Position numbers and translations under genes: made by a program. From the NCBI RefSeq assembly GCF_026210795.1, contig NC_089432.1:2046001-2110000 (forward strand): a stretch of 64,000 nucleotides of DNA, read 5' to 3'. This DNA is from Rhizophagus irregularis (taxonomy: Eukaryota > Glomeromycota > Glomeromycetes > Glomerales > Glomeraceae). Below, in pieces: positions 15,856 to 63,980 of the stretch (positions are counted from its first letter, which is position 1; every line of letters starts with the position of its first letter). The notes beneath the pieces were generated by a model. The model saw only the letters and a program-made list of their open reading frames with translations. It did no database searches and was not told the origin of the DNA.

Positions 15856-18628
15856 TTATTCATTATTAATGTTTCTCTTTTTCCGTTTACTCTTTCTGGA
15901 ACTCTCCATTTCATCTTGATCATCATCTGATCCTTGCTCATATTTACTAAATATTTGCTCAATATCTTTCTCAATATCATTACCTACACTGCTATCTAGG
16001 CGTTTAGCCCTTTTATATAGTTCATACGCCTTTTCTTCATTTACATTCGTTTCAATCCCATGTTGATAATAGTACCCTAATTGTATCATTGCATTTGGGT
16101 ATTCATTTTCGGCCAACTCATTAAATAATTCAAAGGCTTTCTTAATATCCTTATCGACTCCTTCCCCCGCTCCATACATAGTAGCAAGCATATATTGGGC
16201 TGTCCAACTACCTAAATTCGCTGATTTTTGATATAGTTCAAATGCCTTTCTTTTATCAACACTGGTTTCGATTCCATTTAGATAATAATGTGCCAAATAA
16301 CAAATCGCATCTGGATGTTCACTTTCATCCAATTTTTTAAATAATTCAAAAGCTTTCTTGTTATCTTTACTAACGCCCTCACCTTTATCGTATATACAAG
16401 CAAGATTAAATTGAGCTTCATTATATTCATAATCTGCAGCCTCCTCAAATAGTTTCAATGCCTTCTTCTTATTTGAGTTAGTTCCAATTCCATCATGATA
16501 GCAAGTCGCTAACATAGTCATTCCAGATATACTTCCTAATTTTTTTGCCTCTCGATATAACTCTAATGCTTTCTGAAGGTCAATATTAGTTCCAGTTCCA
16601 TATTGATAACAATATCCTAAACGTTCTACTCCGTCTGGGTAATTTTCATAAGCCAATTCTTTATATAATTCGAAAGCGGTGTCAGGATCCTCATCAACGC
16701 CATTCCCCTCTAGATAACATTGAGCAAGATTATATTTGGCTATAATAAGGCCTTGTTCTTTAGCTTTTTTATATAACTCGAATGCTTTTTCTTTATCAAC
16801 GTTAGTTCCAATTCCATAATCATAACAATACCCTAAATTATTTTCACCGGGCGCATTTCCCAAATCTGCAGCCTTTTGATATAATTCAAATGTTTTTTGT
16901 TTATTAACATCAACTCCAATTCCATGCTCATAACAATGAGCTAAATAACTCATTCCATATACATTTCCTAAATTTACTGCATCTTGATATAATTCATAAG
17001 CTTTTTGTTCATTAATTTCTGTTTCAATTCCTAAATGATTGAATCTACCAAGAATAACTAATGAATTTGAATTATTTTGATTAGCTGAAATAAAATTAAA
17101 TATTAATCGTGAAGTTATGTTACGTTCATTAAGATATTCAAGAATTTTATGTTTTTCCTCTTCTATTTTCATAGAACTAAGTAGTTCAATTAATTCTTTA
17201 ATATTATCATCATTAACCTCTATTTCATGTTCTTCTTCGACAGCCATTTCCTCATCATAATTATGGTCTTCATTAACTACATCTTTCTCAATACTTTCTT
17301 CAACGTGGTCATTATCAACCACGACATTTTCATGATCATCGATAACCATTTCGTCACAATTTACGTCATTTGCTTCTATAGTTTCATATTCGATTTTCTT
17401 AATACTTGAAGTAATTTGACGCATAGTTTGACGATTATCTGGTTCTATGTCCCAACAACCTAAAGAAGAAAAATTCATATTTTAAATAAATTTTTTAGCC
17501 AATTAAATCAATTAATCATCTAGTACATGATTGAGTTTAAAATAAAATACTTGCCAGTATAAATATTTATATAATCATCGGGTGTATCACTAACAGGAAT
17601 TTCTCTACGGCCACTGAAAATTTCCATAGCTAATGCGATATCGTACGGTTCATTATCAAAAGGAGGACGACCGCTGGATATTTCCCACAACAATACACCC
17701 ACACTATAAACATCACTCTTTTTATTTAATGAATACACTTCAATCTCATTATCCCTATTTCTTTTCCTGGTAAAACTCTTTGGATCAACATAAGGAATCA
17801 TTCCAATTGATTGAGGATCGGACGCTTCTTCAATTCTTTTAGATAGGCCAAGATTTGCTAATTTAATATTTTTTTGATGTATTAATATGTTATTAGAATG
17901 CTATTATTAATTATAATAAAAGAGAATTAATTATAATTACGTAAGATATATGCGTAATATATAAAATAATAAAATAAAATAAATGAACGAATACCAAATT
18001 ACGGTGTACAATTTCTTCGTCATGTAGGCATGACACAACGTGAACTAATTGAAATGCTAGATCGAATTTGTCATTCCAAGTAAGATTTTTGAAATTTTCC
18101 TTCAAATAATTTTTAAGGGTGCCACTATCGGCATATTCCATTACTAAAAAGAAATCTTTTGGATTGTTTTCTTATTAAGAAAAAAGAAAAGATCGGTTAA
18201 CATTATTTTATTTCATCATGATAACAATTCACGTCATACAAAATATGTAAAAATAATATACCCGTTACAATACCACAAAATCGAATAATATTATTGTGAA
18301 AATCTATTTGACGCCGAAGTTGTATCTAAATCGTAAAATATATTAAAAATATGTATATATTTAATTAATTAATTACGTATTATAAATAATTATAAATTAT
18401 TACCTCATGAACTATTTCTTTAAGTGTGGTTTTGCTGAGATTATAAAAAGATTTCAAAACTAAATGTCCATGAAAGTCATTCCAATTTGCACGGTAAACC
18501 TTTCCAAAATTACTGGAACAAATTTCTTGTATGTTACTAAAATTTTTATATTCATATTGTTTAATATTTCTGCTCGCTATTGCATTTTCGATCCAGTTAT
18601 TCCATTCGTTTGAATTTTCAATTTGCAT
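15856..18628 (-). CDS. K1: pseudokinase-Sel1 repeat protein
   Basis: Five exons with closing phases: 18628-18404, 18325-18262, 18170-17995, 17900-17555 and 17459-15856, giving about 804 residues. The first exon opens MQIENSNEWNNWIENAI. The kinase-like domain spans roughly residues 35-290. The glycine loop is altered (EICSSNFGKVYRANW) while the ATP lysine is kept (LVLKSFYNL, K59). The catalytic HRD is HRN (VHRNL, about residue 154) and the DFG is NLG (LANLGLSKR, about 170), so catalysis is unlikely. The C-lobe ends in CWDIEPDNR. An acidic linker follows, rich in D, E and N, then about ten Sel1 repeats (helical pairs forming a scaffold) and a basic tail, SRKSKRKKRN, that may be a nuclear signal. 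Intron 4 begins with GC (G|GCAAGT) instead of GT. The TKL assignment is inferred from family resemblance. Confidence 0.85.
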
Positions 18629-19367
18629 ATTAAAATTATTTATTATAATAACTTGTAACTAAGTGTGTTTTATTGTTAATTGTGTCTTGTAATTAACCGT
18701 CGCTGGGAGAACTTTTTTTTTTAAAAAAAAACCAACAAAACAATACTCGCTCAACATTTATATATGCATGTAGTCAGGTGATCAGTCGATCATTTTATTT
18801 ATAGTAAATAATAAAGAGGCGGTGTTGCAATAATTGCGTTTTTTATGCCACCCGCACCCTAGCCACCTTTCAAAATTGTTCAAATTGACAAGCCACACAA
18901 CCACATCCGTTCATTCCGTTGGCGGTTGTAAAACATGAATATCTTATGTAATCGTAAAAATTATTTTAGTCCCGAATATTTGAAATATCGAATTTTAAAT
19001 TATAATTACCGGTTGTATCCGGTTGGTTAAAAGCTTATCAAGGGTATTAAATCGGTAATTACTCAATTAGTGAATGGACATATCAGCGGATTTGTTTCAT
19101 CACATGTCATTTGCTATAACAAATTTATTATAGAAATGGGAAAACCAAATTCTCTAATTAATTTACTATATTCGGCTGACATGTGATGAGAAAAAATTCA
19201 TTGCGAAGATCGTTCGTGTATAAAAAAGAACCGAAAAATAAAGGTATAATCCAACGGTCGAAGAAAAATAAAAATTAGTTATTCAACGAGTATATTTTTT
19301 CTTTTCTTTTCTTTTTTTGAAATCTAATATTTAAAACCACTGCAATCACGTGGGCGTTACGTTTAGA
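18629..19367. promoter_or_regulatory. K1 upstream region
   Basis: This is the 5' flank of K1 on the minus strand. A TATATAAAT word (18764-18756, minus) lies about 130 bases ahead of the ATG and could be a TATA element. Other paralogs have similar words closer to their starts. No gene was found in the interval. Confidence 0.25.
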
Positions 19368-19479
19368 CTAACCACATAAATAACAATTTACAATTGTGTA
19401 ACTGCAGTGTGTAATGCAAAGTATAAATCTTGATTTTTTACATGATAGGCACGCTTCATACGCGATTGCCGTAATTAAA

Positions 19480-20285: not shown

Positions 20286-20289
20286 GCAG

Positions 20290-21108: not shown

Positions 21109-23101
21109 TTAATCATTTAACGAATCATCATTATCTTTGATACCTTCTCCGGACTTAATGGATGAATTTGTGAATATCGCCTTATAATGATGATGACGTT
21201 TTTTAGATTTTTTATTGTTCTTTTGCACATTCTCATCATAATATCTTCGCTTACGATCAGTTTCTTCAAAAGATTCATCATTTGGAAAAAGTTCTTCTAA
21301 TTTATTTCTAGCATCTTGATCTCCTTGTTCAGCAGATTTTTTATACCAATAAATTGCTTGATCAATATTTTTTACAATTCCTTCTCCATTTTCATACATA
21401 AAAGCAAGATTATTTTGAGCTGTAATAATATTTCCTAAACCTGCAGCTTTTTCATAAAGTGTAAATGCCCTTTTTTTATTAATTTTAGTTCCAATTCCAT
21501 GTTGATAACAATATCCTAAATTATTTATTCCAAACATATTTTCTAAATGTGCAGCATTTCGATATAATTCAAGCGCTTTTTGTTCATTAATATTTGTTTC
21601 AATTCCTAAATAATTAAATTCTCCAAGTAAAACTATAGAATTTGAATTTGAATTATTTTGGTTATTTAATAACCAATTATAAATTTCTTGCGAAGTTATC
21701 TTATTATTATTTAAATAATCAATAATACTTAGTTTTTCTTCGTACCCTTTTTTTTTCTTCGTAAGTAAATCAACTATCTCATTAACCACCATGATAAATT
21801 TATTTTTTTCTGATGAAATCACTTCATCCAAAATTTGATCTTTTAATGATTTCAATTTCTTAGCAACCTCATTCATATTTGGACGATCATCTGGTTCGCT
21901 ATTCCAACAATCTAAATATATACATACATTAGTGTATAATTTAATTAATTAGAACATATATATTTTTTATAAATTATAATTTAATTTAGATCATATTTAC
22001 CAGTATAAATTTTTACATAATTTTTGGATGTTTCAAAAACAGGAATTTCTCTACGACCCATTGAAATTTCTACGGCTAAACCAATATCATATGGTTCATT
22101 TTTGAAAGGGGGATGACCGCTGGTTATTTCCCATAGTAACACACCCACACTATAAACATCACTTTTTTCATTTGATAAATACATTTCTATTTGATTGTGT
22201 TCATCTCTTTGTCTAATAAAACTCTTTGGATCAATGTAAGGAATCATTCCTGATAATTTTGATCGAAAATTTGACGCTTCTGTAATTCTTTTTGACAGGC
22301 CAAGATCTGCTAGTTTGATGGTATTTTGATGAACTAATATATTATTGGAATTCTATTTTTAAATGCAAATACAAACATAAATAATAAGAATTTTGAATCA
22401 TGATTTCGTTTAGTATAATAATTCAATTATAAAAATGTAATTACCAAATCACGATGTACGATTCCTTCATTATGTAAACATGATATAACATGAACTAATT
22501 GAAATGCTAGATTTAATTTATCGTTCCAAGTGAGATTTTCAAAATTTTCTTTTAAATAATTTCGAAGAGTACTACTATCTGCACACTCCATCACCAAATA
22601 AAAATCCTTTGAATCGATTCCTTGTTAAAAGAAAAAAAAATTCAATTAGTTAAAGTTGAATAACATAATAACATCATTTTATCATTGTGATCCAATACTT
22701 CATCGTAAAATATTATTAAATACTTATAATACCTGCAACGCCATAAAAGCGAATAATGTTCTCATGAAAATCGACTTGATGTTGAAGTTGTATCTATAAA
22801 TTAGGAACGTTATTGTAAATAATTAATTATGAATGAAATATGTATTATTATATGATAATTTTACCTCATGAACAATTTCTTTAATCGTAACTTTATTTAA
22901 ATTATAAAAAGATTTTAATGCAAAACGTCCACTGAAATTTTTCCAATTTGCACGAAAAACTTTGCCGAAACTACCGGAACCAATTTCTTGAACGTTGTTA
23001 AAATGTTTAAAATCAAAATATTTAATAAGTTTATTATATATAGCTTCTTCAATCCAATTAGTCCACTCATTTGAATCGTCAGTATTATTTATAGTTTGCA
23101 T
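21109..23101 (-). CDS. K2: kinase-Sel1 repeat protein, short repeat array
   Basis: Exons 23101-22865, 22793-22733, 22620-22445, 22352-22001 and 21911-21109 join in phase to about 542 residues. The glycine loop is intact (EIGSGSFGKVFRANW), the lysine lies in FALKSFYNL, and the catalytic loop is IVHRDL followed by NSNN. The metal-binding motif is DLG rather than DFG (LADLGLSKR), a substitution tolerated in some active kinases, so activity is plausible. The kinase segment ends with CWNSEPDDRP. After a linker (NNNKITSQEIYNWLLNNQ) there are about three to four Sel1 repeats ending in the conserved AIYWYKKSAEQGDQDARN. A basic tail containing DRKRRYYDENVQKNNKKSK could be a nuclear signal; only K1 has a comparable tail. 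Its four introns sit at the positions seen in the paralogs. The gene lies in the same orientation as K1 and K3, about 2.5 kb from K1. Confidence 0.87.
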
Positions 23102-23896: not shown

Positions 23897-26061
23897 TTAT
23901 TTTAAAAGTTGTTTCAACTTCATTTGAGCATCTTGATCTTGTTCTGCAGATTTTTTATACCAATAAATTGCCTTATCTAAATTTTTCTCCGTTCCTTCTC
24001 CTTTTTCATACATAAATGCAAGGTTATATTGAGCTACACAATTTTCTAAGTCTGCTGCTTTTTGATAACATTCAAATGCCTTTTCTTTGTCAACATTAGT
24101 TCCAATTCCATGTCGATAAGAATGTCCTAAATCATTCATTCCGGACGTATTTCCTAAATTTGCTGCCTCTTGGAGTAATTCAAATGTTCTTTGTTCATCA
24201 ATTTTAGTTCCAATTTTATAGTAATAACAATCTCCTAAATTTTTCATTCCATATGTATTTCCTAAATTTGCTGCCTTTTCATATAACTTAAATGCCTGTT
24301 TTCCGCTAGGACTTACTCCAATTCCATTTTCATAACAATATCCTAAATTATTCATACCAGATATACTTCCTAAATCTGCAGCTCTTTGATATAATTCAAA
24401 TGCCCTTTTTTTGTTAGGAATTACTCCAATTCCATTTCGATAAAAATAACCTAAATTATTTATTCCAGAAATATTTTCTAAATTTGCAGCTTTTTGATAT
24501 AATTCAAATGCTCTTGACTCATTAATATCTGTTTCTATTCCTAAATAATTAAATTCTCCAAGTAAAACTATATAATTTGAATTTGAATTATCTTGATTAC
24601 TTAATAACCAATCATAGAATTCTAATGGAATTATATTATGATTCTTGAGATAATTAAGAATGATCTGTTTTTCATTTTCTTTTTTTTCTTCTATCTTATC
24701 AAAAAGAATAACCATTTTATCAACAATCATACTATAATTAGTTTCATTTATAAATTTTTCTTTTGCTGCTTTCAATTTATCGAACACTTCGCTGATAGTT
24801 GGACGATCATCCGGCTCACTATTCCAACATTCTAAATAAAAAAAAATATATAATTTTAATAAATCGAAACATAATTTAAAAAATTATAACTTTAAAAAGT
24901 TTTTGGATTATATTTACCAGTATAAATTTTTACATATTCTTTAGGTGTATTGGGAACTGGTACTTCCCTATAACCATCCAAAATATCCATAATCAGGCCA
25001 ATATCATGTGGTTCGTCAGGAAAAGGAGGATGACCGCTTGATATTTCCCACAATAATATACCAATACTGTAAACATCACTTTTTTCATTTAATGAATACA
25101 TTTGTGATTGACTATCTACTTGTGCAAAACTTTTTGGGTCAGCATAAGGAATCATTCCAACTGATCTAGATTGAGGATCGGACGCTTCTTCAATTCTTTT
25201 GGATAAACCAAGATTGGCCAATTTGATGGTATTTTTATGAATTAATACATTATTAGAATGCTATTATTAATTGTAATAAAAGAGAATTAATTATAATTAC
25301 GTAAGATCTATGCGTAATATATATAAAATAAATGGACCAATACCAAATTACGGTGCACGACCCCTTCGTCATGTAAACATAACACGACGTGAGTTAATTG
25401 AAATGCTAGATTAAATTTGTCATCCCAAGTGAGAGTTTCAAAATTTTCCTTCAAATAATTTCTAAGGGTACCACTATCGGCATATTCCATCACTAACGAA
25501 TAATTTTTCGTATTGTTTTCTGATTAAAAGAAAAAAAATTAACAAAATTTAATTATGTTACACCATGAGTTTGTATATAACCATAATTGGATTTTTTTTT
25601 TTTGCAATCCGTTCAGATTAATAATAAAGAGATTTTTTATATTATAATTACAATGTTCCATTTATACTAATTACATTAAATATTTATTATACCTGCTGTA
25701 ATTCCACAAAAGCGAACAATATTATTATGAAAATCTAATCCACGCTGTAGTTGTATCTATATCATAAGAAAATAATATAGTTAAATAAAACAAGTATGAT
25801 TTACAGTGAGGTCACATTAAAATATAGTACCTCATGAACAATTTCTTTGGCGGTGATTTTATTAAGATTATAAAACGATTTTAATGCCATGTGATCCTTA
25901 AAATTATTCCAATTCGCACAATAGACCTTCCCGAGACTTCCGATACTAATTTCTTTAATATTACGAAAGCGTCCATAATCATAACATTTAATATTCCCTG
26001 TAGAAATTGCTTCTTCAATCCAGTTAATGTATTCATTTGAATTATCAATATTAGCTTGCAT
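23897..26061 (-). CDS. K3: pseudokinase-Sel1 repeat protein
   Basis: Five exons, 26061-25831, 25756-25693, 25519-25344, 25260-24918 and 24831-23897, join in phase to about 582 residues. The N-terminus is MQANIDNSNEYINWIEEAIS. The glycine loop has diverged (EISIGSLGKVYCANW), while the lysine in MALKSFYNL is kept. HRD is replaced by HRN (VVHRNL) and DFG by NLG (LANLGLSKR), as in K1, so it is a likely pseudokinase. The C-lobe closes with CWNSEPDDRP. The last exon holds a linker and six to seven Sel1 repeats, for example ISGMNNLGYCYENGIGV, ending AIYWYKKSAEQDQDAQ. Intron 3 is nearly the same sequence as intron 3 of K1, which points to a recent duplication or conversion between them. A TATATATAC word lies about 65 bases upstream of the start. 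Confidence 0.87.
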
Positions 26062-27740: not shown

Positions 27741-29180
27741 TTAAATCCATTCCAGTTTTTCACTTATATTTCCATCAAAACCAATGAAATAATTTTTAAT
27801 TATTCCTTTCGCTTTATATGGTTCGATTAAATCTTCTAATTGTTGCTTCTCTTTCAAACTCATAGAAGTACATATTTTTAATAACATAGGATTTCTATCT
27901 TTCCAATTATCTAAAAATAATTTTATATGATTTAATTCAATTATCTTATTAGAAAAAAATTTAAAATCAAATAAATTAATTGAAGAAGATTTAGCTAACA
28001 TTACAAATAATTTATCCCAACCAAATAATTGAGAATCAGTAACATCAATAATTAATTCATTTAAAAATTTACAATTAATTAATAAATTATCAAGTTCTGA
28101 AATAAGTGAATTGTCATAAAAAACTAATGATAATTTAAGATATCTTAGATTTGGACAATTTTGATAAATAGTTTGAATAAGTCTTTTATCTCCACTAACA
28201 TTAAAAACAACACAATATATGCTAATTTCAGAAAGATGTATTTTCGTGCTTTCAATTAAATTTGCTAAAACATCAGGTGGAACTCCATGACCCTTTATAT
28301 TTTTAATAATTTGAAATGATCTAAATTTAGATAATTCACCAAAATTTTTATTGTATGGTAAATCAATTTCAAAACTTAATAAATTTACAAGGTATGAAAG
28401 AATCCTTGTATAAGGTAACCAATCCATTCTCAAATATTGGATAGTATCTGCATGTTTAATTAATGATTCTTCAAGAGATTTGTGTAATGATTTATTCATT
28501 CTTGTTAAATCGATGAAACTTACGTCATTTAGTTTTTCTTGTACTTCAATTAATTTAATGATTCCAGAAATATTATCAATAATCACATTTTGATTATTAA
28601 TAATTCTTAATCTTTTGATTGATTTACATGTTCTAGCTAATAATTCTAGAATATTCTGACTGATTTTACAATAAATGGATAATGATTCAATTTCTGAAAA
28701 ACAATGTTCCACCCCTAGAATATAATGTAATTGATAATTAAAATTTCTTGGAATTGAAAGATGAAGAAATTTTGTATTTCCATTAATAAATAATTTTAAT
28801 ATCTCATTCCTTATTGTTATAGTAGACATAATACTTTTTTGAGAAATGAGAGTTATTATATTTTCTATAAGAAAGAAATTTAAATATTTCCAGAAACTAA
28901 TATAATTAAATAAAGGTCGTTGACTTGTTTCTGTAATAAGATCATCAATTACTTGTTTTTTCAATAAATTTCTTGATTCTTTTGATAAATGTGAAAATAT
29001 TACATTAAATAATATTTTTTTTGAATTATTGGTCATAAAATATTGACCAGGATTTCTCCATAAAATTGATACCGCAGTTATACACCAAGTTTTATTAACC
29101 AAAAGACATGAATAAATGGATTTTTTATCATTTAAATCTTCCAATATTTGGAAAAGGACGTCTTCGTTGAGATACACCAT
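27741..29180 (-). CDS. F-box protein with LRR-like C-terminal region
   Basis: A single uninterrupted frame of 479 residues. The start MVYLNEDVLFQILEDLNDKK and the following SIYSCLLVNKTWCITAVSIL and WRNP form an F-box of about 45 residues at the N-terminus; F-boxes bind Skp1 and bring substrates to SCF ubiquitin ligases. The remaining 430 residues are leucine- and isoleucine-rich with irregular repeats such as CKSIKRLRIINN, CPNLRYLKLSLVF and CKFLNELIIDV, typical of degenerate LRRs in fungal F-box proteins. No signal peptide or membrane segment is evident. It is unspliced, unlike the kinase genes around it, and lies between K3 and K4. Substrate is unknown. F-box families are large in fungi of this type, so this is probably one member of many. 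Confidence 0.85.
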   Translation of the reverse strand: MVYLNEDVLFQILEDLNDKKSIYSCLLVNKTWCITAVSILWRNPGQYFMTNNSKKILFNVIFSHLSKESRNLLKKQVIDDLITETSQRPLFNYISFWKYLNFFLIENIITLISQKSIMSTITIRNEILKLFINGNTKFLHLSIPRNFNYQLHYILGVEHCFSEIESLSIYCKISQNILELLARTCKSIKRLRIINNQNVIIDNISGIIKLIEVQEKLNDVSFIDLTRMNKSLHKSLEESLIKHADTIQYLRMDWLPYTRILSYLVNLLSFEIDLPYNKNFGELSKFRSFQIIKNIKGHGVPPDVLANLIESTKIHLSEISIYCVVFNVSGDKRLIQTIYQNCPNLRYLKLSLVFYDNSLISELDNLLINCKFLNELIIDVTDSQLFGWDKLFVMLAKSSSINLFDFKFFSNKIIELNHIKLFLDNWKDRNPMLLKICTSMSLKEKQQLEDLIEPYKAKGIIKNYFIGFDGNISEKLEWI

Positions 29181-30430
29181 TTTTTCTTTATTATTTTTTT
29201 TTAGAAAAAAAAAAATTAAAAAAATTTGCTATATGTATATATTTATCATATTTCGTGTAACAAATATTACGTTTCATGTTATGGACCACATAGACTGGGT
29301 ACCGTTGATCTTAATCATGTAAATTAAATACTATTCCACACTTCATCTCTTATTTAGGGTATGAATTACTATGTATGGAGTGTTTTTTTTATCGAGATAA
29401 ATCATCTTTTATTAATTAAAAATTTAGCACCACATACATATTAGATTCAAATAACTCCGCTTTTTGGATATATTATGTTTATTAAATGTACACTTTACGT
29501 ATTCTATGATTGTAAATTTATAGTTTTTATTAATGTTTGCGATACAGATCTGCAAAACATGAGATCTGCAAATTAAACATACGCGGGACAGAATCTCATG
29601 CGCTATAATATGTCATCATCCTGTATCATGCACAATACAATTAATACAATTTAAATATTTACCAATTAGTGTTACTAGCGGACCGCTTCGATCCGACTTA
29701 AAGCTAAAGCCGCCAACCCGCTAAAAAAAACTCGATCGAACTGCATCGATTGAAACTTGAAAGTAAAGTACAAGCGTGAAGCAACCGATAGAGCTAATGG
29801 GACAGATCAATCACCAATGGAGTCCGATTAGACTGTGGTTCAACTGATAGTGATTCTTATTTATATATTAACATGTGATTTATTATATGTATTGTTTTGT
29901 TACAATAATAGAAATTTTTTTTAATGATTAAGTGATTTAAAAAACGATTATATTAAGATTTATCACCTTATTACACTAAAAAACCAATTTATTAATTAGA
30001 ACCTTTTTTTTTTTTTTTTTTACGCTATTTTTAAGTTTTACCATCTACCAATCAGCTACATCAACCTCCCATCGAATTAATTTTTTCAAGTCGAACGAAC
30101 CAAAAGACCATTCAGATCCAGTTTAGTTCGAAATACGTTCAATTAAACAATTTTCTAACATATATTTCGATTTCCAATAAAGACATAACGTCAGTTGCAT
30201 GGTAAAATATCTAAGACACACTATTATAAATTAAATTTATTTATTTATATGATATATTGAAAATATTCTTTACTTAAAGGCTTGTAAATTGCAATCAGTA
30301 AATATTAATCAATAAATAATTATTTAAGTTTATAATAATTATATGCTAATTTCTATAATATAAACCTAAATCAATGTTTAAACAAAGTATTACAAAATTA
30401 AAAATTTATTTTAAAAATTCCATATCATTG
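29181..30430. other. Intergenic, no gene seen
   Basis: This is the 5' flank of the F-box gene and beyond. Some less AT-rich sequence at 29650-29860 has no open frame. No RNA gene or inverted-repeat element was seen. Confidence 0.4.
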
Positions 30431-31029: not shown

Positions 31030-33753
31030 ATGCAAGCTAATACTAACAATTCAAATGAATGGATTAACTGGATTGAAGAAGCTTCTTCAAAAAAACTTAT
31101 TAGACATTTTGAACATAATCGTTTTTATAACTTTCAAGATGTTTGTGACGGAAGATATGGGAAGGTTTATCGTGCAAATTGGAAAAATTTTCACGAAAGT
31201 TTTGCATTAAAAACTTTTTATGATTTTAATGAAATTACAATTAAAGAAATTGTTCATGAAGTACTAAATCATAATAATTATAATGCGTTTATTAATTAAA
31301 TATATTCAAGTTTCTAATTTATTCTTATAATTTAGATACAACTTCAAAACAAAATCGCTATTAACGAAAATATTATTAGATTTTATGGCATCACGAAAGG
31401 TATATTATTTTATTTACTTTGTATATATATAACGGCATTTATATATCATCGATGATTTAATATATTCTAATCGTGAATCTGAATCAATTAATTGTTTTCT
31501 TTCTTTTAATAAGAAAATGATTCGAAAAATTATATATTGGTAATGGAATATGCCGATAGTGGTACCCTTCAAAATTATTTGAAAGAAAATTTCGAAAGAC
31601 TCACTTGGGATGACAAATTAAATTTGGCATTTCAATTATCTTGTGGTGTATCTTGTTTACATGATGAAGAAATTATCCATCATGATTTGGTAATTATTAC
31701 GATTATCTTATATCATTGTTTGATGATATTTATATCTTACGTAATTATTTATTTATATGTTAATAATAGCATCCTAAAAATATATTGATTCATCAAAATA
31801 CTCTAAAATTAGCCGATCTTGGTTTGACAAAGAGAATTAATGAAGCATCTAATTTTCAATCATTTGGAACAGTTCCTTATATTGATCCAAAGAGTTTTGT
31901 TAGAAGACGAAAAAATGGAAAAAATGAAGATAATCAAACACAAATATATTCGTTAAACGAAAAAAGTGATGTTTACAGTGTGGGTGTGATATTGTGGGAA
32001 ATATCCAGCGGACGTTCTCCTTTTGTTGATAAAATACCTTATGATATCATTTTGGTAAATGAAATTTTAGGGGGTCTTCGAGAGACTCCTGTTGCAGATA
32101 CACCCAAAGATTATATAAAAATTTATACTAGTAAATATTCAAACTCAATTATGCATTGTATGATTAAATTGGTTTAATTTACTAATCGATTAAATTGTGC
32201 ATATTTTTTTAGGTTGTTGGGACATCGAACCAGATAATCGACCAACTATCAATCAAGTTATTTCAGTCATTACGGACATTATAAATATTATTACGAAAAA
32301 TGATGAAATTTCTAACGATGACGATGTTGAAATGAAAGAGATTTCCGATGATGATAATGTTGAAATAAATGAAATTTCTAATGATGATAATATTGAAATA
32401 ATTGATGTGAATTATGATATAGGTAATCAAATGGTTGACGTGAATTATGATATGGATTACGAGATGGTTGACGTGAATTATGAAATGGTTGACGAAATGG
32501 TTGACGTAAATTATGAGAATGACGTAAATTATGAGAATCATGACATAACTGAGGATATCGAAGACCGTGAAGTAGTGGTTGATGATGATCACGTTGACGA
32601 AATAATTGATCGTCTCAGTAATGTAAAAGAAAATGAAGAAAAACAATGTATTCTTGATTATCTCAATAATAATAAGATAACAATACAAAAAATATATGAT
32701 TTTATATCAAGTAATCAAAATAATTCAAATTCAATTGTTTTACTTGGAAAATTTAATTTTTTAGGAATTGAAACAGAAATTAATGAACAAAAAGCTTATG
32801 AATTATATCAAAATGCTGTAAATTTAGATAATAATGTATATGGAATAAATTATTTAGCTCATTGTTATGAGAATGGAATTGGAGTTAGTGAAGATAAGCA
32901 AAAGGCGTTTGAGTTATATCAGATGGCTGCAACTCGGGGAAGTGCATCTGGAAAATGTAATTTAGCATATTGTTATGATAACGGAATTGGGACTAGCATT
33001 AATAAAAATAAGGCGTTTCAGTTGTATAAAGAGGCTAAGAGAATAGGACATAGTATAGCGCAATATAATCTTGGCATATGTTATGAAGAGGGAAACGGTG
33101 TTGATAAAGATCATAATACTGCTTTTGAATTATATAAAGAATTAGCCGAAGACAAATATCCCGATGGAATAGAGCGTTTAGGATATTGTTATCAACATGG
33201 AATTGGGACTAGTATTGATGAGAGAAAGGCGTTTGAATCATATCAGGATGCAGAAAGTTTAGGAAGTATATCGGGGATGACCATGTTAGCAACTTGCTTC
33301 CATGATGGAATTGGAACTAGAATTAACATGAAGAGGGCTTTTAGACTATTTGAGAAGGCTGCGAATTCTGAATATAAAGAAGCTCAATTTTGTCTCGCTT
33401 GTATATATGATAAAGGGGATGGCGTTAGTAAAGATAACAAGAAAGCTTTTGAATTATTTAAAAAATTGGATGAAAGTGAACATCCAGATGCGATTTGTTA
33501 TTTGGCACATTATTATCTAAATGGAATCGAAACCAGTGTTGATAAGAGAAAGGCATTTGAACTATATCAAAAATCAGCGAATTTAGGTAGTTGGACAGCC
33601 CAATATATGCTTGCCACTATGTATGAAAATGGAGTTGAAACCGTAAAAAATATGGATAAAGCAATATATTGGTATAAAAAATCTGCGGAACAAGGAGATG
33701 AAAATGCTCGAAGTAGATTAGAATCTTTAGAAGTTAATAATGACTTTATTTAA
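31030..33753 (+). CDS. K4: kinase-like Sel1 protein with altered HRD
   Basis: Exons 31030-31260, 31336-31399, 31514-31689, 31770-32130 and 32213-33753 join in phase to about 790 residues. The N-terminus is MQANTNNSNEWINWIEEASS. The glycine loop is partly degraded (DVCDGRYGKVYRANW) and the lysine is present (FALKTFYDF). The catalytic motif is HHD (IIHHDL) and the metal motif DLG (LADLGLTKR). The aspartates remain but the HRD arginine does not, so activity is uncertain. The C-lobe ends CWDIEPDNRP. A roughly 110-residue acidic linker contains tandem VDVNYD/VDVNYE motifs (about 32404-32540). Nine to ten Sel1 repeats follow, ending AIYWYKKSAEQGDENA. About 205 nt of the repeat region are almost identical to K1. 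K4 runs opposite to K1-K3. The frame at 32263-32688 on minus is an antisense shadow. Confidence 0.87.
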
Positions 33754-36361: not shown

Positions 36362-38362
36362 TTATCCTAAAAGTTCTAATTTGTTTAATTCGTTTTTAGA
36401 TTCTTGATCTCCTTGTAATGCAGCTTTTTTATACCAATAAATTGCTTTATCCACATTTTTCACAGTTCCTTTTCCTTCTTCATACATAGAAGCAAGATTA
36501 TATTGGGCTATCCAATTTCCTAATTCTGCGGCTCTTTTATATAATGTAAATGCCTCTTTTTCGTCAACATTAGTTCCGATTCCACATAGATAACAACGGC
36601 CTAAATCATTCATTCCAGACATATTTCCTAAATTTGCTGCTTTCTGATATAACTCAAATGCCTTGTTTTTATTAATTCTTATTCCAATTCCAGCTTCATA
36701 ACAACATCCTAAATTATTTATACCAGTTGTACTTCCTAAATTTGCAGCTTCTTGATATAATTCAAATGCCTTTTTTCTATTAATCTTAGTTCCAATTCCA
36801 TACTGATAAAATTGTCCTAAATTATTTAGTCCAGATATATTTCCTAAATCTGCAGCTTTTTGATATAACTCAAGTGCTTTTGATTTATTAACATTTGTTC
36901 CAATTCCTAAATATAAAAATGTTCCAAGTAAAACAATAGAATTCGAATCGTCTTGATTATTTGATATGAAATCATATATTTCTTGTGAAGTTATATTACG
37001 TTCATCAAGATAATCAAGAATTTTTCGTTTTTCATTTTCTTTTGTTTCTAATATCATACTAAAATGATCAACTATTTTAGCTACAATTAGGTTAAAATTA
37101 GGTGGTGAAATTGATATATTCATCATCTTATTATTAAATTCTTTTAAATTAGAAATCACCTCTTTTATAGTTGGACGTTTATCTGGATCACCGTTCCAAC
37201 AATCTAATATATGAAATAACAAATTTTAAAGAAAATTATTTTTCTTAATCAATTAGAGCTATTATAACAAAATAAGTTTAAATGTAACTTTACCAGAATA
37301 AATTTTTACGTAATCTTTGGGCGCATTTAAAACTGGTATCTCTCTGCAACCTTCTAAAATTTCATTAATCAAGTCAAGATCAAATTGATCATCACAAAAA
37401 GGAGGACGACCAGTAGATATTTCCCATAACAATACTCCAATACTGTAAACATCACTTTTTTCATCTAATGAATATACTTGTATTTGATTATTTTCGTTTC
37501 TTTGTCTATCAAAACTCTTGGGATCAATGTAAGGAAGCGTTTCAAATGACTTTGATTGAAGACCGAATACTTTTTCAATTCTTCTTGTCAAGCCAAGATC
37601 CGCTAATTTGAGGGTATCTTGATGAATCAATATATTGTTTGAGTGCTATTATTTATTAAATTCGATAAATAATAGAGTTAAAATTATTGAATGAATCATA
37701 AAAATCTTTATAGTATACGTTTATTACCAAATCATGATGTACAATTTCTTCATCATGTAAGCATGATACGACATAAGATAATTGAAAAGCCAAATTAAAT
37801 TTATTATCCCAAGTAAGTTTATAATAATTTTTTTTTAAATATTCTCTGAGAGTTCCATCTTCTGCATATTCCATTACCAATGAATAACTTTTCGATAGAT
37901 TATTTTTATTACCCACTAATATATATATAAAAAAAAAATTACTGTGGGCCTTACAATTTACAAAGTTAATTATGAATATTATTAAATATTACCTTTTGTA
38001 ATACCGTATAAATGAATTATATTCTTGTGAAAATTGACCTTACGTTGTAATGTAATCTAAGACCATTTTAAAATTTTTAATTTTGATATATTATGTTAAC
38101 AATAATCAAACCAATTTAAATTATAATATACCTCATTAACAATTTCTTCAGCTATTATTTTATTGAAATTATAAAAAGTTCTCAACGTAAAAGTTTTACG
38201 CAAATTTTTCCAACTCGCACGATAGACTTTTCCAAAACCACCGGAACTGATTTCTTTTATGTTATGAAAGTATTTAAAATCATAGTATTTAATAAGATCT
38301 TTAGAAATGGCATCTTCAATCCAATCGATCCACTCGTTTGAATTGACAGTATTTTTTTGCAT
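36362..38362 (-). CDS. K5: kinase-like Sel1 protein lacking the ATP lysine
   Basis: Exons 38362-38132, 38056-37993, 37915-37728, 37645-37294 and 37203-36362 join in phase to about 558 residues. The start is MQKNTVNSNEWIDWIEDAIS. The glycine loop is near-consensus (EISSGGFGKVYRASW), but the beta-3 lysine is arginine (FTLRTFYNF, R61), a change that usually abolishes phosphotransfer. The catalytic loop is HHD (IVHHDL) and the metal motif DLG (LADLGLTRR). Exon 3 is 12 bases longer at its 5' end than in K1-K4 and encodes GNKNNLSKSYSLVMEYAEDG. The C-lobe ends CWNGDPDKRP. Five to six Sel1 repeats follow, ending AIYWYKKAALQGDQESK. Scaffold function is likelier than catalysis. A TATATAATAA word lies about 45 bases upstream of the ATG. 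Confidence 0.87.
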
Positions 38363-43902: not shown

Positions 43903-46520
43903 ATGTCTAATAACACTGAACTTATTAATAATTCAAATGAGTGTAATTGGATAGAAGAAGCAATCTCTAAAAAACTTATCAAATTTTATGAATTTGGCCA
44001 ATTTTATAATATTGAAGAAATTGGTTCTGGAGGCTTCGGAAAAGTTTATCGTGCAGATTGGAAGGATTCTCATAAACGTTGTGCACTTAAATCTTTTTAT
44101 AATTTAAATGATGCTACAATTAAAGCAATTGTTCGTGAGGTAATAATAATATCAAAAAAAAATGATTCAATTATTATAATATTTACATTTCTAGTATAAT
44201 TTATTATTATTATTATTTAGATTCAACATCATCGTGAAGTTGATTTTTATGATAATGTTATCCGTTTTTATGGCGTCACAACTTTCAGTAGGGATATGAT
44301 AAGTTTTCAATAATCATTGTTTAACATATAATCATTAATTAACTTGTGGATTTTTCTTTTTAAAAGGAAATCAAATCAAAGAATATTCGTTGGTAATAGA
44401 ATATGCTGACGGTGGTACACTTCGAACTTATTTGAAAGAAAATTTTGAAAATCTTACTTGGAACGATAAATTTAGTCTTGCATTTCAACTGGTTTATGCA
44501 GTATCATGCTTACATGGTGAAGGAATCGTGCACCGTGATTTGGTAATTAATCAATTTATGATTTATTATAATTGTTTTTATTTAATGCTCATTTTATCTT
44601 AGTTTAATCTTTTTATACTTAATAATAGCACTCCAAAAATATATTAGTCCATCAGAATACTGTTAAGTTAGCCGATTTTGGACTTTCTAAAAGGATTGAG
44701 GAATCATCCAATCTTCAATCAAAAGTATTTGGAATGATTACTTATGTTGATCCAAAAATATTCAATAGAAGAAGAAATATTAACAATAACCAGCCAGAAG
44801 TATACTCGTTAAACGAGAAGAGTGATGTTTACAGTATTGGCATACTCTTATGGGAAATTTCTAGTGGACGACAACCTTTTTGTAATGAATTGAAAGATCT
44901 CGGTTTGGCCATGGAAATTTTACAAGGTCTTAGAGAGGACCCCATTCCTGATACACCTGAAGAATATATGAAAATTTATACTGGTAAATACTATTTAAAC
45001 CTATGATTTAAAAATAATACCATTTCAATTAATATATATTTTTTATAGATTGTTGGAATATTGAACCTGATAACCGTCCAACTATCAACCAAGTGTTTGA
45101 TAAATTAAAAGAAATTATAAAAAAAGAAAATATAATTATCAAAGACTTTCACTTATTTAATGATAATAAAATTAATGAAATTACACAATCATCTAATAAT
45201 CAGCAGCCAATTTTGGATGGTGAGATTTCTGAAAATATTGATTCATTACATGGAGATTTGTCTCAAATTATTCAAAATTTCAATGTGATGAATACAGAAG
45301 AAATAGAAAAATCTTCGATGTCATCAAGTAACCAATTTGAGAACAATAACTTCGATGTAATAGTTAATGATATATTAATTATTATTTTTAATGATAATAA
45401 TGAAGTAACAAAGCGAAAAGTCCTAAACTATCTTAATAACCGTAATATAACTTTGCAAGAAATTAATAATTTATTATTAAATAATCAAAATGACTCAAAT
45501 TCTCTTGCCTTACTTGGAGATTTTAATTATTTTGGACTTGGAATTTGTATTAATAAGCAAAAAGCATTTAAATTATATCAAAAGGCAGCAGACTTAGGGA
45601 ATTTATTTGGAATAATCAGTTTAGGATATTGTTATTCTAATGGAACTGATATTTATAAGAAAAAAGCATTTGAATTATTTCAAAAGACAGCAGATTTAGG
45701 AAATTCGTCTGGAATAAATAGATTAGGATTTTGTTATCAAAATGGAATTGGAACTGATATTGATAAGAAAAAAGCATTTGAATCATATCAAAAAGCAGCA
45801 GATTTAGGAAATTCGCCTGGAATTAATAGTTTAGGATATTGTTATCTAAATGGAATTGGAACTGATATTGATAAGAAAAAAGCATTTGAATTATTTCAAA
45901 AGGCAGCAGATTTAGGAAATTCGCCTGGAATAAATCATTTAGGATATTGTTATCAACATGGAATTGGTACTGACATTGATAGAAAAAAGGCATTTGAATT
46001 ATTTCAAAAAGCAGCAGATTTAGGCAATTCATCTGGAATAAATCATTTAGGATATTGTTATAAACATGGAATTGGAACTGATATTGATAGAAAAAAGGCA
46101 TTTGAATTATTTCAAAAAGCAGCAGATTTAGGAAATTCATCTGGAATAAATCATTTAGGATATTGTTATCAACATGGAATTGGTACTTACATTGATAAGA
46201 AAAAAGCATTTGAATTATTTCAAAAGGTAGCAAATTTAGAAAATTCATCTGGAATAAATAATTTAGGATATTGTTATCAATATGGAATTGGAACTGATAT
46301 TGATAAGAAAAAAGCATTTGAATTATATCAAAAGGCAGCAGATTTGGAAAATGTAGATGGAATAAATAATATAGGATATTGTTATAAAAATGGAATTGGA
46401 ACTGACGTTGATAAGAAAAAAGCCTTTGAATTATATCAAAAGACAGCAGATTTAGGAAGCAGTTTAGCTCAATATAATCTTGCTATGATGTATGAAAATG
46501 AAGGAACTGTTAAAATATAG
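43903..46520 (+). CDS. K6: kinase with intact catalytic motifs and homogenised Sel1 repeats
   Basis: Exons 43903-44139, 44221-44287, 44367-44542, 44629-44983 and 45049-46520 join in phase to about 768 residues. All key kinase motifs are present: glycine loop EIGSGGFGKVYRADW (residues 39-53), lysine in CALKSFYNL (K63), HRDL (157-160), DFG in LADFGLSKR (D176), and CWNIEPDNRP closing the C-lobe near 280. A serine/threonine kinase of the TKL type is likely. A 150-residue N/E-rich linker leads to about ten Sel1 repeats (from about residue 433). Their DNA repeats with a 108-bp period and very high identity. The frame ends at TAG (46518-46520), while the expected last repeat (IDKAIYWYKKSAEQGDQE and on) continues in the next frame to TAA at 46607-46609. 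One base appears to be missing from an A run at 46512-46515. Without it the protein loses about 30 residues. Confidence 0.87.
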
Positions 46521-58190: not shown

Positions 58191-58199
58191 AATCGATGG

Positions 58200-60022: not shown

Positions 60023-61165
60023 TTACTTTGAATCTTTCAACTCATTAGCAAGATCTCTAATTTTTTTTCTCATATCAGAAGGAAGTAAAAGATTCTGTTC
60101 ATTAACTTCTAAAATCTTCTCAAAATCTATTTGATCTGAATTTGATTGTAATTCAATAATTCTTTGATAAAATTGATCAATAATAGAAAGTACAAATACT
60201 CCGCAATCTGACAAAAATTTAAAAAATTTACATTAATTATCAAAATATTGTTATATAATAAAAAATAAATATGTAAGTTACCTGAACCTAAAATAAATTA
60301 AAAATATCCAATTAATTGAAATTATTTAAATTAATATTAAATATTTGAGTTAAATACATCAATTTTAACATACCATTTTTTTGTTGAGGTGTTTTTACAA
60401 CGACAATATTATTTCCTAAAAATGGAATTTTTTTTTTAAAAAAAATATCATAATCTAATCATAATATAATTTTTCATTTCTTTAATACCTACTTTTGACT
60501 TCTAGAACACCGGAAATTTTATCTGCAAATTTATAAGCAATATAAGAATTCATATTATTAGCACTATCATAATATAAAAATTTATTATTCTGTTTTACGT
60601 AAATTAGCAAAGACCAATGACTTCCTCCAATAAAACTTTCTAAGGACTGTTTATTATTTACTGGAATGAATATTATATCAGCAGAAAATATTTGTTTTGG
60701 AAGTGCGCTAGCAAGATATTTCGCATCTTTATAAAAATAAATGAAATATATGTAAATAGAATAAAATAGGTAAATGATATTAGAACAAAAAAAAAGTGGA
60801 TGAAAAAAACCTTCAATATTTGTTATGAGAAAACTCATCGATGCTCGCAAAAGATTTGGTTTAACCTTGGATTCTTCTTTTATAGAATAATTGTATTCAA
60901 GATATCTTTTAAAGGAAAAAAAAATGTTTTATTTTTAGAAATATTTATGAAAATCAAGTAATGATTTCTTACATACTCCAAATAAAAATCTACGCATCGG
61001 TCATTCAACCATCTATCATCGTATAAGAGTCCATAATCCTGTATTGGGTGAAAAAAAAAAATAATTTAAAGAACATACTTTCGATACAAAAATTTATAAG
61101 AAATATTATAATTATACCTCTGGAGCAAGCATAGCGTCTTTATAGTATAAAGTAGAGGTTAACAT
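60023..61165 (-). CDS. NEDP1/SENP8-like Ulp1-family cysteine protease
   Basis: Seven exons join in phase to 223 residues: 61165-61118, 61038-60977, 60905-60811, 60726-60493, 60415-60374, 60287-60282 (6 nt) and 60207-60023. The start is MLTSTLYYKDAMLAPE; then DYGLLYDDRWLNDRCVDFYL, the N-terminal Ulp1 motif, follows. The catalytic His lies in GGSHWSLLIYV, the Asp in FLYYDSANNMN, and the Cys in NGSDCGVFV, with the oxyanion Gln in TPQQKN. Size and the SHWSLL...YYDS spacing match NEDP1/SENP8 (human about 212 residues), which removes NEDD8 from cullins and other targets, rather than the larger SUMO proteases. NEDD8 specificity is inferred. The microexon supplies bases of the Gly-Ser-Asp before the catalytic Cys. 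No neighbour is functionally linked, although the F-box protein 31 kb away belongs to cullin-ligase biology. Confidence 0.85.
60282..60287 (-). other. 6-nt microexon of the NEDP1-like gene
   Basis: GTTCAG lies between an acceptor TTTTAG and a donor GTAACT. Spliced between AAT-G (60374) and AT-TGC (60207) it gives codons for N G S D C, restoring the active-site motif. Without it the phase is unchanged, but the product would lose Gly-Ser and read N-D-C. Confidence 0.8.
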
Positions 61166-61829: not shown

Positions 61830-62404
61830 GTATATCTGTCAATATCAGATAAAGTAGTAGTGTACATCCTTCATCCGCATAAAATATAGCTTTTTTATTC
61901 TTAGCGTTAAAACCAAATCAGCCATGTATCTTATTACTGTGTGCGCCTCATGAAATTTTGCATTATCGTCTGTAAATGGATAAACTAAAAAAAAAAATTA
62001 CAATTTCATTATCAACATGAAAGATTGAAAAGTACTTATACCCTATCAAATTCAGATGACGAACAGCCACAATTATCATAAAATATTACGGTACAGGAAT
62101 ATTAGACATATAATATAACATTGACAAAAACATCCATCCCTTTAAGAACTTGGACTAGATTGACTTTTTGAGCGTAATCTACGCATAAGTTTCTGCACCT
62201 TTTTAACTTTTTCATTTTCAATATCGTCCTATTCTGTAAACACGATAATATGAGAAATTCTTGATATTTTTTTATAATAAATCTATTGCTTAAGCTTTAA
62301 GTTTTACCTAATTTAGCGTCAAGTTTATGCGTGACCTGTCCTTTTGTAGTATGTCGTAAAGTATCACAGCCAGTTTGCTGAATAATATGGATATCAAATT
62401 CAGG
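61830..62404 (-). pseudogene. Frameshifted gene of unknown function
   Basis: Exon-like pieces on minus are bounded by good splice signals. 62404-62308 encodes PEFDIHIIQQTGCDTLRHTT and KGQVTHKLDAKL. About 62228-62146 encodes DDIENEKVKKVQKLMRRLRS, KSQSSPSS and a stop. The junction between them is out of phase by one. A further piece near 61980-61840 encodes TDDNAKFHEAHTVIRYMADL and then, after a one-base shift, NKKAIFYADEGCTLLLY. A basic, serine-containing helix (EKVKKVQKLMRRLRSKSQSS) is the clearest feature. Either this is one or two decayed genes or the assembly has indels. The family is not recognised. Confidence 0.45.
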
Positions 62405-62691
62405 CTAGATAAGTCGAAATAAAATTTTACGTAGATAAAAAATTTCAGAATTACCTTGCGAAATAAGAGTTTACGGCTGGTTATATTATATTTATAAAAT
62501 ATAAATGTTTAATGCAAAATAATAGCATTATTATTTAAGATATAAAATTTGATATATGTTTGGCATATTACTTTAATTAGTTGTAACTTTCTCTTTTTTT
62601 TCTAACAAAGAATAAATATATTTTATTTATAATTTTCAAAAAATAAGTACACATAATTTTATTTACATCTATATTATATAAACCAAATTTT

Positions 62692-63980
62692 TTATTTCTC
62701 AAATTTTTTTAATTGATTTTGAGCAATTTTTAACCCTTGTTTAGCAGATTGTTCATACCAATAAATTGCATTATCAATATTTTTCATAATACCTTTTCCA
62801 TTTTCATACATGAAAGCTAAATTATATTGAGCTGTACAACTTCCTAAATTTGCAGCCTTTTGATATAATTCAAATGCTTTATTCTTATCAATAATAGTAC
62901 CAATTCCATATGAATAACAATATCCTAAATTATTTATTCCAGAAATATTTTCTAAATTTGCAGCTTTTTGATATAATTCAAATGCTTTCTGTTTATTAAC
63001 ATTAGTTCCAATTCCTGAATAATTAAATTCTCCAAGTAAAACAATAGATTTTGAATTATTTTGACTAATTAATAACCAATCATAAATTTCTTTTGATGTT
63101 ATATTACGATCATTAAGATAATTAAAAATTTCTTTTTTTTCTTTTTTTTCGTCCGATTTATTAATAAGATCAACTAATTCATCAACTATGACGTTAAAAT
63201 CATTCTTAATTTGATTACTTGATGATTTTAATTCATCGACTACCTGGTTGATAGTTGGACGATTAATTGGTTCACCATTCCAACAATCTAAAAAAAGGGG
63301 TAATAAATTTTTTAATTAATCAATTAAATTAATTTTACTTGTGAAACATAATTAATATTATATTTACCAGTATAAATTTTTATATAATTCTCGGGTGTAT
63401 TAGGAATAGGTTTCTCTCTTAAACCTTGTAAAATTTCTACAGCCAAACCGATATCATATGGTTTTCCCTCAGCATAAAAAGGACGTTGACCACTAGATAT
63501 TTCCCATAATAATACTCCAACGCTGTAAACATCACTCTTTTTATTTAAGGAATATACTTTATTATTGTTTCTTTGTCTGCTAAAACTTTTTGGATCGACG
63601 TAAGGAATTACTCCAAATAATTTTGATTGAAGGTTGGAAGATTCTTCAATCCTTTTCGATAATCCAAAATCGGCCAACTTTATAGAATTTTGGTGAACCA
63701 ACACATTATTAGAGTGCTATTAATAAAAAAGAAAGTTTTATAAGTCTATATAAGTCATAACAATTTATAAAACCATGACATATAAAATAGAATACCAAAT
63801 CACGGTGCATGATTCCTTCATCATGTAAGCATGATACAGCGGAAGCTAACTGTAATGCCATGTTAAATTTATCATTCCAAGTAAGAATTTCAAAATTTTC
63901 TTTTAGATATTTTCGAAGAGTACCACCGTCAGCATACTCCATTACTAACATGTATCTCTTTGAATTATCACTTTGAACCT
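62692..63980 (-). CDS. K7: kinase-Sel1 repeat protein, 5' end outside the window
   Basis: Three exons are visible: 63980-63796, 63716-63368 and 63287-62692. They join in phase to 375 residues and a stop at 62694-62692. Exons 1 and 2 should lie beyond position 64000, so the glycine loop and ATP lysine cannot be judged. The catalytic loop is MHRDL followed by HSNN, and the metal motif is DFG (LADFGLSKR), so this copy is probably active. The C-lobe ends CWNGEPINRP. A linker (NDRNITSKEIYDWLLISQ) and three to four Sel1 repeats follow, ending AIYWYEQSAKQGLKIAQN. The last exon has no early ATG. Orientation matches K1-K3 and K5. Confidence 0.85.

Follow-up and report, generated by a model that had tools for sequence, protein, structure and literature searches.

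Two constrained pseudokinases in a local clade of kinase-Sel1 genes of Rhizophagus irregularis

K1 and K3, two of seven kinase-Sel1 genes that lie close together in the R. irregularis genome, carry asparagine in place of both catalytic aspartates; they are not visibly decaying, and constraint on them is as strong as in intact relatives. With K2, K4 and K5 they form a private local clade, and we infer that K1 probably serves as a non-catalytic scaffold or competitor that shares the targets of K4. The window, as the whole analysed stretch of 64,000 nucleotides is called here, had been given a preliminary description in which seven paralogs of one five-exon layout were placed within 48 kb, and all seven gene models were recovered in place:

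15856..18628, minus strand: K1, pseudokinase-Sel1, 804 aa; exons 18628-18404, 18325-18262, 18170-17995, 17900-17555, 17459-15856
21109..23101, minus strand: K2, kinase-Sel1, 542 aa; exons 23101-22865, 22793-22733, 22620-22445, 22352-22001, 21911-21109
23897..26061, minus strand: K3, pseudokinase-Sel1, 582 aa; exons 26061-25831, 25756-25693, 25519-25344, 25260-24918, 24831-23897
31030..33753, plus strand: K4, kinase-Sel1, 790 aa; exons 31030-31260, 31336-31399, 31514-31689, 31770-32130, 32213-33753
36362..38362, minus strand: K5, kinase-Sel1, 558 aa; exons 38362-38132, 38056-37993, 37915-37728, 37645-37294, 37203-36362
43903..46520, plus strand: K6, kinase-Sel1, 768 aa; exons 43903-44139, 44221-44287, 44367-44542, 44629-44983, 45049-46520
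62692 to beyond 64000, minus strand: K7, kinase-Sel1, 479 aa; exons 3-5 at 63980-63796, 63716-63368, 63287-62692 (the DNA next to the window supplied exons 1-2, which fall beyond its end)

The splice pairs of the predicted models are GT-AG with the exception of intron 4 of K1, which is GC-AG; this check is independent for introns 1 and 3 only, because the script imposed GT/GC and AG on introns 2 and 4. Four of the seven proteins (K1, K2, K3 and K6) were scanned with Pfam, and each has a PF07714 kinase domain (residues 33-289 of K1, E 1.3e-40, and likewise in the others) together with Sel1 repeats, in 9, 2, 4 and 8 stretches respectively. Judged from the predicted start codons of these four, the kinase match begins at residue 33-37, with about 31-36 residues and no Pfam domain ahead of it. 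In K6, otherwise motif-complete, a frameshift ends the open reading frame inside the last Sel1 unit. No upstream sequence common to K1-K6 was matched (600 bp each, E 1e-3), and shared promoters across these six genes were rejected on that count.

The catalytic motifs were as previously described, with HRN and NLG in K1 and K3, HRD and DLG in K2, HHD and DLG in K4 and K5, arginine for the VAIK lysine in K5, and HRD and DFG in K6 and K7; all motifs are intact in these last two, including the Gly-loop and VAIK lysine of K7. Three of the substituted motifs were located as follows:

17995..18006, minus strand: K1 HRNL, catalytic Asp to Asn, at the end of exon 3
17845..17864, minus strand: K1 KLANLGL, DFG Asp to Asn, from the genome pattern search
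25205..25224, minus strand: K3 KLANLGL, DFG Asp to Asn, from the genome pattern search

The first glycine of the Gly-loop is absent from K1, K3, K4 and K5, and in all K1 has lost two of the three glycines and K3 one, the first. When loss of the VAIK lysine, the HRD aspartate or the DFG aspartate is taken as the sequence criterion, K1 and K3 class as pseudokinases through both aspartates (HRN and NLG), and K5 through its lysine to arginine change only, which makes its status doubtful. In textbook kinases the two aspartates serve as base and in metal binding. Both are asparagine in K1 and K3, in addition to the Gly-loop losses, and it seems improbable to us that either protein keeps weak phosphotransfer or carries out a different transfer reaction, even though the VAIK lysine, the αC glutamate, the catalytic-loop asparagine and the DFG glycine are retained in both and some pseudoenzymes, according to the available text of PMC10211241, may still catalyse reactions.

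K2, K4, K6 and K7 retain every catalytic residue (lysine, αC glutamate, HRD aspartate, catalytic asparagine and DFG aspartate in K2 and K4) and are not filed as pseudokinases, a class that was rejected for K2 and K4 on this ground. K4 and K5, in which HHD replaces the HRD arginine and keeps the aspartate, are of the non-RD type. For comparison, 105 kinase domains were assembled, comprising the seven of the window and 98 out of 104 retrieved loci with a match to exon 4; the retrieved loci were near relatives from the best 150 of each of three match lists, plus pattern matches, and the set leaves out L004, L005, L009, L011, L032 and L087, in which exons were missing, so that it covers near relatives and not the whole kinome. 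The HRD arginine is missing in 23 of the 105, in one of them (L021) by frameshift, and the DFG phenylalanine is leucine in 10, so neither HHD nor DLG singles out a pseudokinase in this family. The graded series of pseudokinases seen in the preliminary description is not supported by this comparison, since K2 and K4 are catalytically complete and HHD and DLG recur in relatives; the series is nested local evolution, and mostly phylogeny.

The motifs are no product of chance: genome-wide, KLA-D-[F/L]-GL was found at 332 places compared with 1 in the control, and KLA-N-[F/L]-GL at 11 compared with 9. Kinase exons account for 5 of the 11, namely K1, K3 and three of the nine others, those three being from other subfamilies; from a list of 13 Asn-pattern places, K1 and K3 were examined. 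Catalytic aspartates have also been lost in L035, L054 and L081 among the near relatives and in L005 and L009 in other subfamilies. Measured over 74 conserved columns, K1 departs at 7 and K3 at 8, of which four in each are the first Gly-loop glycine, both aspartates and the DFG phenylalanine, and K1-K5 depart at 6-8 sites as against a mean of 1.1 and a maximum of 8 in 89 relatives.

In the tree of the 105 domains K1-K5 group as a private clade (SH-aLRT/UFBoot 95/99), in which K1 and K3 are sisters (96.6/97) and K5 is the sister of K4. K6 and K7 fall in other clades, and the idea of the seven genes as a single tandem array was rejected for this reason. When the four catalytic columns were removed, with 21 taxa, K1+K3 was still recovered (92.2/86 for protein, 95.8/63 for DNA); a grouping due solely to the shared asparagine columns is thereby rejected, the pair persisting with lower support. 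The AU test does not reject K1+K2 (p 0.29), K2+K3 (0.060) or K3+K4+K5 (0.21), so the aspartate losses could be parallel, in which case part of each of the K1 and K3 tips could predate them, and the sister relation of K1 and K3 is favoured, not proven.

The motif-poor members had been thought to be selected and not dead, and for K1 and K3 this held within this genome, where the dN/dS check proposed earlier gave values for K1 and K3 that are not near 1. Their pairwise ω is 0.132 at a dS of 1.6 (LR 82 against ω = 1). On the K1 and K3 tips ω is 0.171 compared with a background of 0.165 (2ΔL 0.03), ω = 1 being rejected (2ΔL 77), and a 40-taxon fit gives 0.159 compared with 0.189 (2ΔL 0.65). The stop-bearing copies in the latter fit have an ω of 0.280 (n = 7, 2ΔL 7.1), this control using seven of nine lesioned copies with the frameshifted L021 and L044 left out, and other copies that have lost an aspartate have an ω of 0.266 (2ΔL 3.7, just below 5% significance). 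Since the stop-bearing copies also reject ω = 1 (2ΔL 52), low tip ω alone is no proof of present function, and on the K1K3 stem ω = 1 is not excluded (2ΔL 2.18). Neutral simulation on a branch of K1 length produced a mean of 13.3 stops in the kinase part alone, and none of 2000 runs was free of stops. A reading of K1, K3 and K5 as mere pseudogenes in the course of being lost is already contradicted and has, in our estimate, very little chance of being right: catalytic residues are lost, K1-K5 depart from the conserved columns beyond most relatives and many relatives are broken (a stop lies in the kinase exons of at least 9 among the 105), but the frames of K1-K5 are open through all five exons, neutrality would predict about 13 stops in the kinase part alone on a branch of K1 length, and neither a disabled frame nor a dN/dS near 1, the pair of signs by which a decaying pseudogene is known, was found (ω for K1+K3 0.159-0.171).

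Unexpectedly, the kinase domains and the Sel1 arms do not seem to share one history. The Sel1-arm segment joins K1 with K4 (99.5/100 for DNA, 99.5/99 for protein) and rejects the K1+K3/K4+K5 topology (p-AU 0.0002 and 4e-6), whereas the kinase codons of seven sequences favour that topology (p-AU 0.95). The kinase side of this conflict is weak, the three K1+K4 topologies having p-AU values of 0.055, 0.012 and 0.088 on the same codons, with one rejected at 0.05. Within the arms lies a nearly identical block:

16173..16401, minus strand: K1 Sel1-array block of 229 bp, shared with K4 at 97.8% identity
33397..33625, plus strand: K4 Sel1-array block of 229 bp, shared with K1 at 97.8% identity

Identity across the remaining exon-5 alignment is 71.7%, and 0 of 5000 block shuffles reach the value of the block; dS between K1 and K4 is 0.175 inside it and 1.354 outside. 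The next genome match among the best candidates scored is 78%, and a third gene as donor was rejected on that basis. The alignments place the K1 arm in one lineage with that of the catalytically complete K4, and the exchange of the block later. Such array exchange, together with the large expansion and the differing lengths of the Sel1 arrays, would suit the symbiotic or self/non-self sensor-adaptor family for which these genes were first put forward as candidates, and HRD-Arg-lacking kinases, here the 23 of 105, are tied to innate immune signalling across kingdoms in the available text of PMC8463890. We nonetheless regard this role as unlikely, as diversifying selection was not apparent in the few exon-5 pairs tested, whose ω, with the exchanged block set aside, is 0.11-0.34; every pairwise ω computed was below 1.

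The explanation that we prefer is that K1-K5 diversified within some 22.5 kb of a single R. irregularis chromosome and would have lost catalytic residues along their branches: the DFG phenylalanine, to leucine, in all five, the first Gly-loop glycine in four, the HRD arginine, to histidine, in K4 and K5, the VAIK lysine, to arginine, in K5, and both catalytic aspartates in K1 and K3. The pseudokinase state of K1 and K3 would most simply have arisen once, in a common ancestor, with both genes evidently constrained since then like their intact relatives. K1 and K4 combine arms of common lineage, one patch of which was later exchanged between them, with kinase domains that apparently have different nearest relatives. 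On this view K1 would work without phosphotransfer and bind the partners of K4 via the shared arm, as scaffold or competitor, and the retained VAIK-Lys/αC-Glu pair and the hydrophobic leucine of NLG would maintain a kinase-like fold. It is also conceivable, if rather unlikely, that K1 is a self-tuning decoy, its arm and that of K4 matched by repeated exchange as the kinase domains diverge into "off" and "on" versions; the pseudokinase would then track, and compete for, the evolving targets of K4.

A possibility that we rate below the shared-target explanation, but take seriously, is that the kinase family, being very large, undergoes ordinary birth-and-death in which catalytic residues drift in certain old copies; K1 and K3 would then be retained on grounds that have nothing to do with the genes around them, and there would be no particular local system. 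The family is indeed large: a rough first scan gave 2,954 candidates for a single exon, KLAD[F/L]GL occurs at the 332 places mentioned above, and 2,533 kinases are given for R. irregularis in the available text of PMC10234402; the aspartate losses elsewhere and the lack of common upstream sequence also agree with it. It accounts less readily for an ω in K1 and K3 that equals the background, unlike that of the stop-bearing copies and, at just below significance, of the other aspartate-loss copies, or for the fact that the Sel1 arm is shared with a gene lying close by.

A compact group of duplicated signalling genes in a root-symbiont fungus holds two enzyme-dead-looking kinases that are maintained by selection and can be separated by it from decaying copies. 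Their residue losses map to a local clade of old standing, and the shared arm names K4 as candidate partner, so that the expanded kinases yield a few testable pairs. HHD and DLG, on the other hand, are unsafe as pseudokinase marks in kinase-Sel1 genes.

Our literature search, in the texts available to it, found no function for kinase-Sel1 genes, and found pseudokinase-Sel1 genes treated nowhere except where Glomeromycotina Sel1 proteins, said to be Glomeromycotina-only, are filed as MLKL homologues (PMC8778642). The likeness there is a kinase-like domain with Sel1 repeats. MLKL acts via an N-terminal four-helix bundle (available text of PMC10197012), for which the short leader in the four scanned models leaves no room, and membership was rejected. 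The high-copy kinase and Sel1-like "Class C" genes of R. irregularis (PMC8647823) are of the same species and the same kind of expanded signalling genes, but that account, in the available text of PMC8647823 and PMC10234402, is without pseudokinase clades, selection on them or kinase-pseudokinase exchange of Sel1 arms. The closest kinases of known structure are TK and TKL, the first match being labelled EGFR for both K1 and K6, with CTR1, RIPK1 and LIMK1 within the top 60 matches of both and MLK and BRAF for K6 only. The primary study on TKL-group pseudokinases is reportedly that of Kwon et al. 2019. Such pseudokinases are said to predominate in plants and fungi (available text of PMC10211241). 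They resemble K1 and K3 in a TK/TKL-like kinase domain that has lost catalytic aspartates, but here the losses map to one private local clade and the pseudokinase has a Sel1-arm lineage in common with a neighbouring complete kinase. HER3 and the JH2 domain of JAK2 have asparagine for the HRD aspartate, and ULK4 has it for the DFG aspartate, and these act through allostery or scaffolding. They are animal proteins with other partner domains and without a Sel1 arm, but share with K1 and K3 an asparagine at a catalytic aspartate position.

The window corresponds to C4:2046001-2110000. Each of the seven gene models, K1 to K7, predicted from genomic sequence alone, has five exons. Exon 1 encodes the Gly-loop, the VAIK motif and the αC Glu, exon 2 the remainder of αC, exon 3 terminates at HRD-L, exon 4 spans the catalytic Asn to DFG, and exon 5 encodes the C-terminal end of the kinase followed by a linker and the Sel1 repeats, together termed the Sel1 arm. 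The exons of K7 absent from the window were found intact in the directly adjoining DNA, and every motif listed in the preliminary description was recovered. A GC-AG splice pair fits intron 4 of K1 (17460-17554), with all other introns of the seven models being GT-AG. The acidic linkers from kinase to Sel1 arm are long in K1 (17100-17460) and K4 (32213-32650), where the latter carries internal repeats, and far shorter in K3 and K5. K6, in which all motifs are complete, has a frameshift close to its 3' end (46500-46520), with the other frame continuing the last Sel1 unit; this could be genuine or an assembly error. A QV of 36.27 is reported for the published assembly (PMC10234402).

The motifs were compared across 105 near-relative kinase domains, seven from the window and 98 from elsewhere in the genome (L-numbered loci). 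The HRD Asp is present in 100/105, being lost in K1, K3, L035, L054 and the frameshifted L021, the DFG Asp in 102 (lost in K1, K3 and L081) and the VAIK Lys in 103, with Arg instead in K5 and L097. Within this set only K1 and K3 have lost both Asp. The stop-free copies with a single Asp loss are:

C4:2829810-2831110, L035
C4:4531380-4532680, L054
C16:3855750-3857050, L081

Genome-wide, the pattern KLAD[F/L]GL was found at 332 places versus 1 for the control, and KLAN[F/L]GL at 11 versus 9, the kinase exons among these 11 being K1, K3 and three of the nine others (L004, L005 and L009). A second motif-flanking pattern gave 270 places with Asp versus 12 for its control, and 13 with Asn, K1 and K3 included, versus 19. 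Census and genome-wide patterns agree, so HHD and DLG are common variation and HRN together with NLG is rare. HHD and DLG had been proposed as grades of pseudokinase; the HRD Arg is missing in 23/105 domains and the DFG Phe is Leu in 10/105, which is ordinary variation, and K4 and K5 are non-RD kinases. NFG also occurs in kinase exons of other subfamilies, at L005 (C13, about 1991.86 kb), L009 (C28, about 1844.2 kb) and L004 (C11, about 351.3 kb); as L005 also has HYN and L009 HRE, double Asp losses arose outside K1/K3 too. The APE Glu is missing in all 105 near relatives (e.g. window 44629-44983; Lys in 74, Gln in 28, Arg in 2, Asn in 1), a DPK/DPQ motif replacing APE, and the αF Asp is retained in 100/105.

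In the protein tree of the 105 domains K1 to K5 form a clade without any other member (SH-aLRT/UFBoot 95/99), within which K1 groups with K3 (96.6/97), K4 with K5 (96.5/100) and K2 takes no firm position; K6 clusters with one C4 copy and two C14 copies, and K7 is placed elsewhere. The ladder of the proposed graded series is, as read from the tree, a nested local history. K1+K3 persists in 21 taxa without the four catalytic columns (92.2/86 protein, 95.8/63 DNA), where three alternatives, K1+K2 (0.29), K2+K3 (0.060) and K3+K4+K5 (0.21), survive the AU test. One double-Asp loss before the K1/K3 split is the simplest reading, not the sole one.

The suggestion that the pseudokinases are constrained rather than dead was upheld for K1 and K3 when dN/dS was computed. 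Pairwise, ω is 0.132 (dS 1.6), and in a 16-taxon branch model the K1/K3 tips have ω 0.171 versus 0.165 for the background (2ΔL 0.03), with ω=1 rejected (2ΔL 77); on the short K1/K3 stem ω=1 is not rejected (2ΔL 2.18). In a 40-taxon model ω is 0.159 for K1+K3, 0.163 for K4+K5 and 0.280 for seven stop-bearing relatives (2ΔL 7.1 versus one ratio); L035, L054 and L081 pooled give 0.266 (2ΔL 3.7, narrowly missing significance at 5%). The branch method therefore picks up a degree of relaxation in the broken copies but not in K1/K3. This control is partial, as broken copies also reject ω=1 (2ΔL 52) because their tips cover time preceding the break. Neutral simulation along a K1-length branch gave a mean of 13.3 stops, with 0/2000 runs stop-free and both Asn kept in 12%. 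A set of 89 relatives has 74 columns with a conservation of 95% or more; K1 differs at 7 of these and K3 at 8, and in each of the two, four of the differences are both Asp, the DFG Phe and the first Gly of the Gly-loop. The corresponding numbers are 7 for K2, 7 for K4 and 6 for K5, and the 89 relatives average 1.1 (maximum 8), so the whole K1-K5 clade is more divergent than most relatives.

At least nine of the 105 relatives carry a stop in kinase exons, some via frameshift. Directly beyond K7, L011 (C4:2112300-2114600) has HCD and DFG, a broken exon 4 frame and no recognisable N-lobe exons; in this stretch, then, the broken copy is one that keeps both Asp and the Asp-less copies are whole, the opposite of what decay alone predicts. 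About 90 of the best 150 K6 exon-4 matches, counted by hand, lie on C4. Other features of the window are:

13524-14063, SAM_Ste50p-like ORF, match below cut-off
27741-29228, F-box-like gene between K3 and K4, match below cut-off
60482-60928, Ulp1-type peptidase fragment

Exon 5 of K1 and K4 is co-linear across 1,068 bp (82%). In a segment of 105 residues that spans the linker helix to the first repeats, K1 is sister to K4 (99.5/100 DNA, 99.5/99 protein), and the K1+K3/K4+K5 topology is rejected (p-AU 0.0002 and 4e-6). The kinase codons prefer K1+K3/K4+K5 (p-AU 0.95), and of three K1+K4 topologies on them (p-AU 0.055, 0.012 and 0.088) one alone is rejected at 0.05. An older exchange of the Sel1 arm between the K1 and K4 lineages is the favoured reading of these alignments. 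Downstream of the segment a 229-bp block is 97.8% identical between K1 and K4, versus 71.7% for the remaining exon-5 alignment, with dS 0.175 inside and 1.354 in the array outside, and ω 0.031 and 0.151, respectively. Its score of 194, versus at best 63 in the other 20 pairs, was matched by 0/5000 block shuffles, and the next genome match is 78% over 173 bp. The two copies lie on opposite strands, 17 kb apart. A later patch of gene conversion is the well-supported reading of this block.

K1 and K3 are constrained, both catalytic Asp are replaced, and the K1 arm shares its lineage with that of K4. In protein kinases the hydroxyl group of the substrate is held in place by the HRD Asp, and metal is bound by the DFG Asp; with both gone, phosphotransfer should be abolished or crippled. 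K1 may bind the targets of K4 and tune its output as scaffold or competitor, and K3, with a different arm, might play the same part toward other targets. Non-RD kinases are tied to immune signalling in other systems (PMC8463890); for K4 and K5 such a link would be only an analogy.

Kinases and Sel1-like genes are described as expanded and highly methylated in R. irregularis, such high-copy genes lying close to Mutator-like elements (PMC8647823, PMC10234402), and in plants and fungi the TKL group reportedly predominates among pseudokinases (PMC10211241). A literature search covering mainly open-access papers listed nothing on selection on pseudokinase-Sel1 genes or on arm exchange. The unusual feature is arm sharing; the nearest published counterparts are Sel1-bearing Glomeromycotina proteins, which are filed under MLKL (PMC8778642).
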